A stretch of DNA of 64,000 nucleotides from Planctomycetota bacterium. GTDB lineage: Bacteria; Planctomycetota; UBA1135; UBA2386. Location: assembly GCA_028281765.1 (NCBI GenBank), contig JANQJF010000039.1, positions 1-64,000 of the forward strand, read 5' to 3'. Made by a program: the position numbers and the translations under genes. This document shows positions 31,857 through 36,208 of this stretch, piece by piece (positions within the stretch are counted from its first letter, which is position 1; the number at the start of each line of letters is the position of its first letter). The notes beneath the pieces were generated by a model. That model saw nothing but the letters and a program-made list of their open reading frames with translations, ran no database searches and was not told the DNA's origin.

Positions 31857-32474
31857 ATGCGACGCATCTTCATCGGAGACGTCCACGGCTGCTCGGAGCC
31901 GCTCGAGCGCCTGCTCGACGCGGTCGAGTTCCGACCCGGAACCGACGTGCTCTACCAGGTCGGTGACCTCGTCAACAAGGGGCCCGACTCGATTGGCGTG
32001 TTGCGTCGTATGGTCGACCTCGACGCGCAGTGCGTGATCGGGAACCACGACCTCTACTGGCTGGCTCACGACCGCATCGACGATCCGACCCTAGCCGACT
32101 GGCTGCGATCGCAGCCGGTCGTTCGCGTTCTCGACGACGTGATCATGGTGCATGCAGCGCTGCACCCGCACTGGACCGTCGAGGACCTCGCGACACTCGA
32201 CGATGCCGATCGAGACTTCGCGGTCAACGCGCGCTACTGCACCGCGGACGGCGAGCGGCCGACGTCCGACTGGCCGCCGCCCGAGGATCCGTATCGACCG
32301 TGGGACGAGTTCTACGAGGGTGAGCACACCGTCGTGTTCGGGCACTGGGCGCGTCGCGGCTTCGAGCGAACCGACAGCACGATCGCCCTCGATTCGGGCT
32401 GCGTCTACGGCAACGAGTTGACCGCGTGGGTCGCCGAAGAGGATCGGGTCGTCCAGGTTCCGCGCGAGCCCTAG
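31857..32474 (+). CDS. ApaH/PrpE-like metallophosphoesterase
   Basis: 205 aa. The metal-binding motifs of the calcineurin-like family are all present: GDVHG (residues 7-11), GDLVNKGPDS, GNHD and GHW. The spacing fits bis(5'-nucleosyl)-tetraphosphatase (ApaH) or PrpE-type protein phosphatases. It is shorter than E. coli ApaH (about 280 aa). It probably hydrolyses Ap4A or a phosphoprotein in the cytoplasm. The 3' end overlaps the convergent cytochrome gene by 4 nt. Confidence 0.85.
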   Translation: MRRIFIGDVHGCSEPLERLLDAVEFRPGTDVLYQVGDLVNKGPDSIGVLRRMVDLDAQCVIGNHDLYWLAHDRIDDPTLADWLRSQPVVRVLDDVIMVHAALHPHWTVEDLATLDDADRDFAVNARYCTADGERPTSDWPPPEDPYRPWDEFYEGEHTVVFGHWARRGFERTDSTIALDSGCVYGNELTAWVAEEDRVVQVPREP

Positions 32475-34090
32475 CGCCCGATCCGCGTCGCGGCGAAGCC
32501 GAGCACTTCGGGTTGCTTCGGTTGCGCGTCGTACATCCGCACGAAGCGCTTCGCCTCCGGGGTGTCGATCGGGCGCAGTGCGTCGACCCAAGCCGGCGGC
32601 ACGCTCTGGTAGTGCAACCAGGCCCGCACCACGACCGGGATGCGTGGTCGGTCCTTCATCGACACGCGGAATCGGACGGTGTCGCCGCCCGCGCCGAAGT
32701 CTTCGTCGTCGCCGATTCCGACCGGGCTCGTCACTTCGGTGTGTGGGCCGTCTGCGCGCCAGCCGCGTGGCAGCAGGCGGTTGTCCTTCCCGCGCGCGGC
32801 CATGTCGACGAGGTTTGTCGTCGGCTTGCCGTGTTCGTCGAACGTCACGAGTTCCCACACCGCGACTTCGTCTTCGGCATCGATGGTGTCGTAGTGCGGG
32901 ATCGCGAGCTCGTCTTCGATCCCGAGCAGGCGGCCGTCCGCGTCGAAGCGTCCCGACGCGAAGACCTCTTCTCCGCCCTGCGTGACTTCCACGCGGAGCC
33001 AGACCCGGCGCGCCGGATACGCGGTTGGCAGCTTGTGTCCCGAGAGGTTTTCGACACGCACGGAGAACATCGCGTCGTCGCCGTCCGATTCGGCCGCACG
33101 GATCGCGACACGCGCGGTGTGATTCATGAGCTGGCGACGCGTCATGCGCGCGGTCCGCGCGAACGCCTCGGGAGGCGCGTCGAGTTCGAGCTCTTCGTGA
33201 TTCGCGCGCATCAAGTCGAGCATGAACGCGTTGCCGCCGACGAACCCGTGCGCGCGCACGTGCTCGCGATCCCGCAGGAACAGGTCATTGCCGTTCGGAT
33301 CCCGCGCGATGCGCGTCGTGCCGACGTCGGCCATGTGACACTCTTGGCAGGTCTTCGACGTCTCCGAGCGATCGATCTCGCCGTTGTATTCGGGTTCGTC
33401 GCAGAACTCGCTGTTGCGCCACTCGAGATACGGCGTCTGTTCGTGGAACGGCTCGCCGCCGTGATGCGTGATCAGCGTGTGGCAGCTGCCGCACAGCGCG
33501 GAACGCTGGATGTGTGCACCGAACCGGGGCGTGAACCCGGTCGTGCCGCGCATCATGCCGACGTTGGGGTTTTCGTACGGGCCGAACACGACGCGGCCAG
33601 GCTCGATCTGCAGGTGGCCGGAGAAGCTCTTCTCCGTTCCGAGCTGATCCGGCTGAACTTGGTGGCAGATCGTGCACGACACGCCGTCCTGCGCGAGCGC
33701 GTCGATCTCGCAGCTCTCGATCGACTCGGGCTCGTAGTCTTCGAGTCGCGCTTCGTGGTGTGCCATCGGCGCGTGGCACCGCAGGCACAGCGCCTCGATT
33801 TCGCCGGCCTTCTCGGGATGGAGGGCGGCTTCCTTGGAGACCTGCGCACGCCAATACGGGTCGCGGAACGAGTTGGCCATCATCGTGGCCTTCCACGTGC
33901 CGTGCGGCGAGACGTCGTCGCCGAGCGGTGAACGCAGCGCCGTCGCCTCCTCGCTGGCCGAGTGGCAGTCGGCGCACGTGCCCGAGTGCATGAAGTGATC
34001 GCTGCTCTCTCGCGGTCCTGGTCCCGACGCGTTCGCGGCGAGGAGGCTCGAGACCGCGGCGCTCCAATACAGCAGAGATCGCGCGTGCAT
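32471..34090 (-). CDS. Exported pentaheme cytochrome c
   Basis: 539 aa with an N-terminal signal segment (hydrophobic residues 7-20). Five CxxCH haem-binding motifs: Cys39 (CADCH), Cys102 (CLRCH), Cys139 (CTICH), Cys200 (CGSCH) and Cys248 (CQECH). All lie in the first half. The second half (about 290-539) is haem-free and beta-rich, with a region ENLSGHKLPTAYPARRVWLRVEV typical of multihaem cytochromes fused to a C-terminal Ig-like domain. It is periplasmic and probably an electron carrier; the donor and acceptor are not in the window. It starts 3 nt after the stop of the DUF2911-like gene, so the two are in one operon. Confidence 0.9.
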   Translation of the reverse strand: MHARSLLYWSAAVSSLLAANASGPGPRESSDHFMHSGTCADCHSASEEATALRSPLGDDVSPHGTWKATMMANSFRDPYWRAQVSKEAALHPEKAGEIEALCLRCHAPMAHHEARLEDYEPESIESCEIDALAQDGVSCTICHQVQPDQLGTEKSFSGHLQIEPGRVVFGPYENPNVGMMRGTTGFTPRFGAHIQRSALCGSCHTLITHHGGEPFHEQTPYLEWRNSEFCDEPEYNGEIDRSETSKTCQECHMADVGTTRIARDPNGNDLFLRDREHVRAHGFVGGNAFMLDLMRANHEELELDAPPEAFARTARMTRRQLMNHTARVAIRAAESDGDDAMFSVRVENLSGHKLPTAYPARRVWLRVEVTQGGEEVFASGRFDADGRLLGIEDELAIPHYDTIDAEDEVAVWELVTFDEHGKPTTNLVDMAARGKDNRLLPRGWRADGPHTEVTSPVGIGDDEDFGAGGDTVRFRVSMKDRPRIPVVVRAWLHYQSVPPAWVDALRPIDTPEAKRFVRMYDAQPKQPEVLGFAATRIGR

Positions 34091-34093
34091 GCG

Positions 34094-35134
34094 TTACTCG
34101 GACTTCGGCATGAGCTGCGCGTGCGGCACGACGAACTCGGCGCGCCGCTGACCGAACGTGAGGTGGATCGAGAACGCGTCGTCCTCGGTCTTCGCCATGC
34201 ACGTCAGCGCCTTCGAACCTTCACGAAGAGCGACGAGGTTACCCCGCACTTGGAGCTTTGCCGGTCGTGCCGCAGCGCGTTCGGCGAGACGCTCGAGCTC
34301 CTTGATCTCGTCGCTCGTCTTGTCCGCCCACGCGCGCACGTCCGCCGCGTCGTCGGGGTTCGACTTCAGGTACTCGAGCGTCTGCTCGTAGTTCTGCTTC
34401 GTGTGCTTGAGTCCGCGCTTCGCGTCCGTTGCCGTGAAGTTCTTCATCAGCAGGTGCATGACGTTGCGGTCGTGTTCGCCGTAGAGGTCGTATCGAACGC
34501 CGTCGTGATGCCAAGTGCCGAACAGCAGGCGTTCGCCGGTGGCGACGCGCATGTGCATGCTGCGGGTCGAAGGCAGGTGGAAGAACTCGAATCGGGACGG
34601 CTTGCCGCCGATCTTCGCCTCGACCGAGCTCACCTCGAGCGCCTGGAAGCGCGCGGACAGCGACATCGTGCCCCAGTGCAGCTTGAGCCCGAACTCGTTC
34701 TTGTCCGGAGTCAGGTCGATCGCGAGGGTCTCCTGGGCCTTCTCGTCCGAGGCGAACTCGAACGGCATGACCATCGAGGAAGTCCCAGGCACGAAGATTG
34801 TCGGCCCGCGGAACAGGAGCAGGCGCCAGTTCGATGGCCCCTGATAGCGCGCCGACATCCGGTAGTCGCCGGGCGGGATCGTCGCGTCGCCGCACATCAG
34901 CGGGGCGTCAGTCTTGAGCTCCGCGGCCCATCCCGCGCTCATGCGCCAGACGTCGCCCATCTCTAGGCTGGTCTCGGGCTCGCGTCCGCGAAGTTCGGTC
35001 GGGGCGTAGGTGATCGTGACTTTGCCGGCGGGCAGCATCGTCGACTTCTCGACCCGCTGCTGCCCGACGAGCGTCGTCGCGCAGAGGGTCGTGAAGACGA
35101 GTACGAATCGAAGCGGGATCATGGCCACGATCAT
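34094..35134 (-). CDS. Exported DUF2911-like protein
   Basis: 346 aa with a signal peptide (RFVLVFTTLCATTLVG). The region WRMSAGWAAELKTDAPLMCGDATIPPGDYRMSA matches the DUF2911 pattern, in which a Trp-x-x-Gly start is followed by a Thr-rich strand and an AGxY turn. A Lys/Glu-rich helical part follows (residues 255-300). The function of DUF2911 is unknown. An in-frame ATG at 35122 is an equally possible start. It is in an operon with the pentaheme cytochrome gene. Confidence 0.78.
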   Translation of the reverse strand: MIVAMIPLRFVLVFTTLCATTLVGQQRVEKSTMLPAGKVTITYAPTELRGREPETSLEMGDVWRMSAGWAAELKTDAPLMCGDATIPPGDYRMSARYQGPSNWRLLLFRGPTIFVPGTSSMVMPFEFASDEKAQETLAIDLTPDKNEFGLKLHWGTMSLSARFQALEVSSVEAKIGGKPSRFEFFHLPSTRSMHMRVATGERLLFGTWHHDGVRYDLYGEHDRNVMHLLMKNFTATDAKRGLKHTKQNYEQTLEYLKSNPDDAADVRAWADKTSDEIKELERLAERAAARPAKLQVRGNLVALREGSKALTCMAKTEDDAFSIHLTFGQRRAEFVVPHAQLMPKSE

Positions 35135-35173: not shown

Positions 35174-36208
35174 CTAGCGAATCGGGACGTAGTGCAGCGT
35201 CCGTCCGCCCTCACCCCCGAGGATCCGAGGCGCCAGCCCGAGGAACGGGTCCTGGAGCGGAATCTCGAGGACCTTCTCGAAGAGAGCGTGAGCCAGATTC
35301 GTCGGAGTGACCGGTCGAGGTTGTGCGGCCATCAGCGCGTGAGCGAGGGGGTAGCGGAAGCGGCGGTTGTTCCTGGTGTCGGACTGCAGCGCGGTGACGT
35401 CCGTGAGCGCTGCGGGCTTTCTCGAAGTCACGGCCGGAGTCTTGGACAGGATGGGCTGCTCCACGCGACGCTTCACCTGGATGGCTTCGCGATCGCGCTG
35501 CGGATCGGTGCTCTCGGCGGGTCGGTGCTTCGCCGCCTCGATGCGGGCGAGCGCCTGCTCGTGGTAGCGGGTCACCGCGGCGTGCCGGTCTTCCTCTCGA
35601 CCGAGTGCGCGGGCCGCGCCGACCGCCTGCTTCGCTCGCCGCAGGAATTCGCCGCTGTCGACGAGTCCCGGTTGGACGTCGAAGGCGACGCCGTCGGAGA
35701 AGCAGAACCAGGTCGCGATGTTGCCGAGCATCGTGCGCTCGAGCGTCGTGCCGTCACCGAAGTCGATGTAGACCTTCGGGACTTTGCGCACGCTCGTCCA
35801 CGCGCACTCGAAGTGTTCGTTCAGGTAGTCGGCGACGGTCGGTTGCGAGAAGTTCACGCTCCTCGCGATACGCGCGTTCGTTCAACAGAACTCGTCGTCG
35901 AGCTGGCCGAGTAGCTGGAACACGAGCACGGGTTTGCCGGACGTGCGGGCCGCGACGACGGCTTCGTATTCGTTTCGGTGCCACCGGACCATGCCGGGCG
36001 CGACCTTCTTCGACGGCTGCGCGCTCGGTGCGAGGCGATGCTTGTAGGGGCTCTCGACGCCGGACTTCGAAAGCGCCATCAGCGGCTGCTGGAGAAGCAC
36101 CATGTCCTTCGGATTGTGGTGCTGGGGGGGACGCGGGAGCGCGTCGTGAATCTGCTGGGCGGGCATGGTCGCGCCGACGAGCAGGAACGGGAACGTGAAT
36201 CGGATCAT
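35174..36208 (-). CDS. Exported thioredoxin-fold protein with in-frame TGA (candidate selenoprotein)
   Basis: One reading frame on the minus strand from the ATG at 36208 to 35174, interrupted only by TGA at 35884-35882, which would be codon 109 of 345. A signal peptide (MIRFTFPFLLVGATMPAQ) precedes a linker. A thioredoxin-type strand follows, GKPVLVFQLLGQLDDEFC, then TGA, then TNARIARSVNFSQPTVADYL and VPKVYIDFGDG...GNIATWFC. The TGA therefore follows Cys108 directly, where a redox Cys pair would be expected. Codon use after the TGA is as GC3-rich as before it, so the second half still looks translated. If TGA is a true stop, these would be two fragments (35885-36208 and 35174-35881) of a broken gene. 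No selA/B/C/D gene is in the window. The gene is 39 nt upstream of the DUF2911-like gene on the same strand. Confidence 0.6.

Follow-up and report, generated by a model that had tools for sequence, protein, structure and literature searches.

A candidate thioredoxin-like selenoprotein family of Planctomycetota with a conserved hairpin behind its in-frame UGA codon

Introduction

Does the TGA that interrupts an otherwise open reading frame in a planctomycetal genome end a protein, or is it read as an amino acid? This question is raised by the minus strand of the window (the whole 64,000-nucleotide stretch of DNA that was analysed), where the frame from an ATG at position 36208 to a TAG at 35176-35174 runs through 344 codons and codon 109 is its lone TGA (35882..35884). 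A sequence-only reading of this DNA had proposed that selenocysteine (Sec) is inserted at residue 109. The genes for Sec synthesis and insertion in the source genome, the alternation of TGA and cysteine codons in a single alignment column and a conserved hairpin of the SECIS type all support that proposal, and together they make a very strong case, built from sequence comparison, that the codon-109 TGA is read as Sec.

An in-frame UGA in a conserved gene

The stretches before and after the TGA lie in the same frame and the codon stands in the context TGT-TGA-ACG-AAC (Cys108 before it and Thr-Asn after it), just as the sequence-only reading had described. Composition is coding-like on both sides, with GC contents at the three codon positions of 0.69/0.41/0.87 before the TGA and 0.69/0.49/0.85 after it. 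The earlier claim that coding continues past the TGA for 236 codons is right in substance but one too high in number, since 235 sense codons follow and the larger figure counts the stop. Within the window TGA is also the most frequent ordinary stop, used by 21 of 38 coding-like open reading frames, so the codon is not reassigned genome-wide and the TGA at codon 109 needs a special reason. The product of the gene (35174..36208, minus strand) would be a thioredoxin-like protein of 344 amino acids that appears, when judged by eye, to begin with an N-terminal export signal (signal peptide). Homologues align with most of its length, through the TGA and beyond, which places an in-frame UGA inside a conserved protein, as is found in bacterial SECIS-dependent selenoproteins.

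A homologue search of 294 genomes of the phylum gave a match in 53, and a genome-contig scan with the single window protein as query gave none. In a full alignment of 30 family members (the window gene plus 29 from other Planctomycetota), exactly one TGA is present in 21, always in the same column, and TGC occupies that column in the remaining nine; once Sec is written as Cys, this is among the few invariant columns. None of the homologues, which the sequence-only reading had suggested aligning, ends at the TGA position. A profile search of 392 genomes returned 102 matches in 66 genomes, and these contain one TGA in 88 cases, no stop in 14 and TAA or TAG in none. An alignment-based scan of named genomes, whose patterns spell Cys codons so that only Cys forms could be found, added 198 Cys relatives, the best 80 of which come from Cyanobacteria (Nostoc and others), Acidobacteriota, Myxococcota, Verrucomicrobiota and other Planctomycetota; all 58 of the 198 that were read carry SCANSR at the site.

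The selenocysteine machinery

All four genes that the sequence-only reading had proposed to look for (selA, selB, selC and selD) are present in the source genome, an assembly of 8.78 Mb in 129 contigs that is 88.8% complete. SelA (490 bits) and SelD (359 bits) are encoded directly next to each other on contig C9, SelB (365 bits) on C75 and tRNA-Sec on C49, the last at 73.6 bits (gathering score 47) and in agreement with ARAGORN (tRNA-SeC tca). The SelD of this genome (L048, G000:C9) carries an in-frame TGA of its own, in the context SGU-AAK, and downstream of that codon GCGAG and CUCGC form the stem of a hairpin. The selD gene thus resembles the window gene in having a UGA and then a hairpin, but it encodes an unrelated enzyme that makes the selenium donor. 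With SelA, SelB, tRNA-Sec and a Sec-containing SelD present, this genome must decode UGA as selenocysteine somewhere.

The same machinery accompanies the close Sec forms elsewhere, since SelA or SelB was above cut-off in all 15 tested genomes that have one. The gaps among these 15 (SelA in G164 and G173, a SelA fragment only in G280, SelB in G154) fall in fragmented or less complete assemblies. Among genomes with Cys forms, SelA was above cut-off in seven of nine from the same phylum and in four of 12 named genomes, and it was not found in the four cyanobacterial Cys-form genomes tested (L062, L071, L075 and L128). Within Planctomycetota, having a Cys form does not go together with having lost the machinery, and SelA does not separate the two groups.

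A conserved hairpin downstream of the UGA

A hairpin of the SECIS type lies at 35845..35866 on the minus strand, where an 8-bp stem (GCGAGGAG/CUUCUCGC) closes a 6-nt loop, CGUGAA. It begins 18 nt from the U of the UGA and leaves 23 nt between that codon and the loop; the second loop position is a G that is followed by U, and the folding energy is -14.9 kcal/mol. These values all lie within the bounds quoted for the bacterial SECIS model, namely a loop of 3-9 nt, a stem of 4-16 bp, a G in the first two loop positions, a spacing of 16-37 nt and a minimum free energy of at most -7.5 (PMC13188914), so the search for such an element that the sequence-only reading had recommended gave a hairpin that fits the model. 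It is a different hairpin from the one that reading had pointed to: the pairing of ACGC with GCGU around an apical GG is not the signal, and the conserved element is the next hairpin along. The two structures compete, as the stem end and loop of the conserved one use the GCGU bases.

By folding energy it does not stand out from comparably GC-rich sequence (z = -0.18), so the argument for this hairpin rests on conservation. In a fixed register, the inner six pairs form in 16 of 16 close Sec forms, against 0.56 expected with random synonymous codons, and the same-register stem is present in none of 67 Cys forms (nine aligned and 58 read). More distant Sec forms have the same-register stem in 27 of 44 cases, against 0.87 expected, and several others of them fold a hairpin in a different register. 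Compensatory changes have altered both sides at four of the six pairs, and the covariation score is 0.557, where shuffles give 0.187 (sd 0.044) and slid partners no more than 0.196. Four members (L020, L021, L024 and L033) illustrate the pattern at the protein level: Tyr-Ala replaces Phe-Ser, and an Arg codon CGU replaces AGA or AGG, so that the stem stays paired. The conserved hairpin is also a SECIS pattern that could serve to find further members. When a covariance model of it was run on the source genome, the window gene, at 60.1 bits, was the only convincing match, the next scoring 19.1 bits; the four further matches that were inspected do not resemble selenoprotein genes.

Other readings of the UGA

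A broken or miscalled gene that should read Cys at this position, through a nonsense mutation or a sequencing error, was the alternative that the sequence-only reading itself had raised. Relatives with Cys at the TGA position do exist and the assembly is divided into many contigs and incomplete, as an error would allow, but the same TGA recurs in the same column across many independent assemblies and never gives way to TAA or TAG, so sequencing error is excluded. Mutational decay fits no better, given that the composition stays coding-like past the TGA and that a covarying hairpin is conserved in the TGA forms only, and this explanation as a whole is extremely improbable. There is hardly more to be said for programmed termination, in which the UGA would be a true stop that separates a 108-residue exported peptide from a second protein starting at a GTG at 35857. 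An open reading frame from this GTG is present, yet a split here would part the first strand of the thioredoxin fold from the active-site helix, the Cys relatives are single unbroken proteins, and a conserved SECIS-type hairpin limited to TGA forms would be left without explanation.

UGA has been reassigned in other bacterial lineages, so it could be asked whether a suppressor or a changed code supplies Trp, Gly or Cys at codon 109 with no involvement of selenium. The use of TGA as the commonest stop in the window speaks against this, as do the alternation of the residue with Cys only and the presence of a whole Sec machinery whose SelD itself uses a Sec codon; recoding of this other kind has a negligible chance of being correct. 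Selenocysteine at residue 109 is thus the reading carried forward below.

Predicted structure and chemistry

An AlphaFold2 model computed from the window protein together with 35 Cys relatives (mean pLDDT 76.7) places a thioredoxin-like domain at about residues 72-203 (35600..35995, minus strand) and a helical region C-terminal to it (35177..35599, minus strand). Values of pLDDT are mostly above 80 in the domain and 64 in the block 101-110; the first 65 residues are modelled with low confidence, and those just before Sec109 with moderate confidence only. The modelled domain has a strand at 94-100, Sec109, helices at 110-119 and 123-132 and further strands, and the C-terminal helices fall within 208-313. 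Foldseek returned 3f9u and 7tkv (Thioredox_DsbH domain), 2ju5 (DsbH) and DsbD-gamma as best matches, with a probability of 1.00 for 3f9u, 7tkv and 2ju5, and thus assigns the model to the DsbH kind of thioredoxin fold. A sequence profile finds AGR2 and 3f9u weakly. The earlier description of the protein as thioredoxin-like holds for the predicted structure, but by sequence it is matched only below threshold. Outside the domain, near-invariant residues include K246 and E250, within a K-x-x-V-E-x-P element at residues 246-252, and D320, P321, L323, G324 and L325 of a conserved DPxLGL in which the C-terminal helical region ends.

In this model Sec109 caps the first active-site helix of the fold, and by count it presumably falls on the first Cys of the CxxC motif of DUF255. 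The protein does not have a second redox residue at the +3 position, as a CxxC thioredoxin would: Ala or Gly occupies that position in 59 of 61 Sec forms, and it is Ala in the window protein, so alignment and model agree that Sec109 has no CxxC-type partner. The adjoining residue, Cys108 (TGT, 35885..35887, minus strand), had been implied by the sequence-only reading to form a redox pair with the Sec. That pairing does not extend to the family, in which the Sec is invariant and the residue before it is not: among the 16 close Sec forms that residue is Cys in 14 and Thr in the other two, in distant Sec forms it varies, and in Cys forms, the named ones included, it is Ser. To judge from the alignment, Cys108 may act as a partner without being essential.

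A sequence of events that would account for these features begins with SelB, which would bind the hairpin, with its loop 23 nt past the UGA, and deliver Sec-tRNA, so that the ribosome would insert selenocysteine at residue 109 rather than stop. The Sec, which opens the first active-site helix and lies in the position of the attacking cysteine of thioredoxins, could then attack a peroxide or a disulfide of the cell envelope; Cys108, where present, or an external thiol might in turn resolve the selenenic acid or selenenyl-sulfide so formed. Cys forms retain this domain, with a sulfur atom where Sec forms have selenium. With moderate confidence, the protein is most likely an exported monoselenol oxidoreductase or peroxidase. 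The competing view of its function, which accepts the same selenoprotein but gives it a structural role or one in metal or selenium handling, is fairly unlikely, though of some weight: it would suit a family without known function whose Sec forms lack both a +3 partner and an invariant second Cys, but it sits less well with a thioredoxin fold that has Sec at the nucleophile position and with Cys as the sole replacement seen.

Relation to known families

The closest structural relatives, proteins of the DsbH/DsbD-gamma/AGR2 kind (PF03190 Thioredox_DsbH, PF13899 Thioredoxin_7), share the fold and the nucleophile position with the family of the window gene. That family departs from them in four ways: Sec replaces the first Cys, a second one is lacking at +3, a VPxVTIDFGDGRxLxRTxxGN segment is conserved, and the C-terminal part is long and helical. 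Sequence matches of the PF03190/PF13899 type are sub-threshold and reach no Pfam gathering score (14.6 bits against 27 for PF03190). The VPGUxxT family (NF041382, NF041383) likewise consists of bacterial thioredoxin-like selenoproteins, and its models match the N-terminal half of the domain weakly and locally, at E 3.2e-5 at best; the window protein scores 14.7 bits with NF041383, where the cut-off is 275, and the motif of its family is instead [C/T]-U-[T/A]-N-[A/G]. Throughout the tables examined, all Pfam and NCBIfam matches for family proteins were below cut-off. Peroxiredoxin-, thioredoxin- and glutaredoxin-like bacterial selenoproteins (UxxC, TxxU, UxxT and others) also place a SECIS-dependent Sec in a thioredoxin-type active site and have Cys relatives. 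In the portions covered of a 2026 table of 119 prokaryotic selenoprotein families and subfamilies, however, the listed thioredoxin-type members are mostly UxxC, CxxU or UxxT, unlike the Ala or Gly found at +3 here, and those portions hold no match to the motif or profile of the window family (PMC13188914). The family is also absent from the nine new selenoprotein families of a 2025 deep-learning search (PMC12013277), and a further literature search for it found nothing. As far as checked, this is therefore a new, uncatalogued selenoprotein family, with the proviso that it may have been sighted earlier in the supplementary table of selenoproteins that a study of two Planctomycetes reports (PMC4807772).

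Evolution and further members

In a tree of 90 domains over 134 columns, midpoint-rooted and with long branches, in which the Sec forms come from Planctomycetota, all Cys forms make up a single group nested among Sec forms, and the distant Sec subfamilies fall on the opposite side; the Cys branch is moderately supported (66/90). This nesting fits an ancestral Sec and one change to Cys. Accordingly, the balance tips slightly toward Sec as the ancestral and prevailing active-site residue of a large thioredoxin-like superfamily of Planctomycetota, so far uncatalogued, from which one Sec-to-Cys branch passed to Cyanobacteria, Acidobacteriota, Myxococcota and Verrucomicrobiota. If so, a widespread Cys family would have a clear Sec-to-Cys origin, and the family would be a case where Sec looks older than Cys; its similar Sec and Cys versions offer a clean test of what selenium adds.

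Profile searches gave up to seven superfamily matches per genome. Two more distant members in the source genome, L131 (G000:C46:19200-20900) and L132 (G000:C93:202700-204500), have one in-frame TGA each, the motif [T/L]USA[A/G]QSLRG and a hairpin with a different apex, and are likely also selenoproteins. About seven members occur in each of two single genomes, G280 and G044, nearly all with a TGA, and genomes of this type are possibly those of selenoprotein-rich Planctomycetota. Such members belong to several subfamilies, with the motifs CUAAG, UNNAQ and USAGQ (L134-L137, L139, L142, L147, L161, L167 and L170). Because standard gene finders stop at UGA, an entire group of exported redox proteins of Planctomycetota is probably annotated as short fragments.

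Gene neighbourhood and a repeated motif

No neighbouring gene was found to be clearly conserved beside homologues, so the context lends no support to a function. Relatives of the response regulator and kinase next door occur near two homologues, as expected of common gene families, and no relatives of the DUF2911 and cytochrome genes were found beside homologues. The DUF2911 gene (34094-35134, minus strand; E 4.7e-11) directly follows the selenoprotein gene and encodes an exported-looking protein. The product of the gene at 32471-34090 (minus strand) is a multiheme cytochrome-like protein with CxxCH motifs; it weakly resembles the ExtKL family of (seleno)proteins, at 19.5 bits where the cut-off is 250.

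Outside the thioredoxin domain, residues 48-55 and 246-253 of the window protein carry a short motif, K-x-x-[V/I/A]-E-x-P-[L/I/V/M]. It is found in most close members, in Sec and Cys forms alike, and one of the relatives (L013) has about seven copies of it in its C-terminal half.
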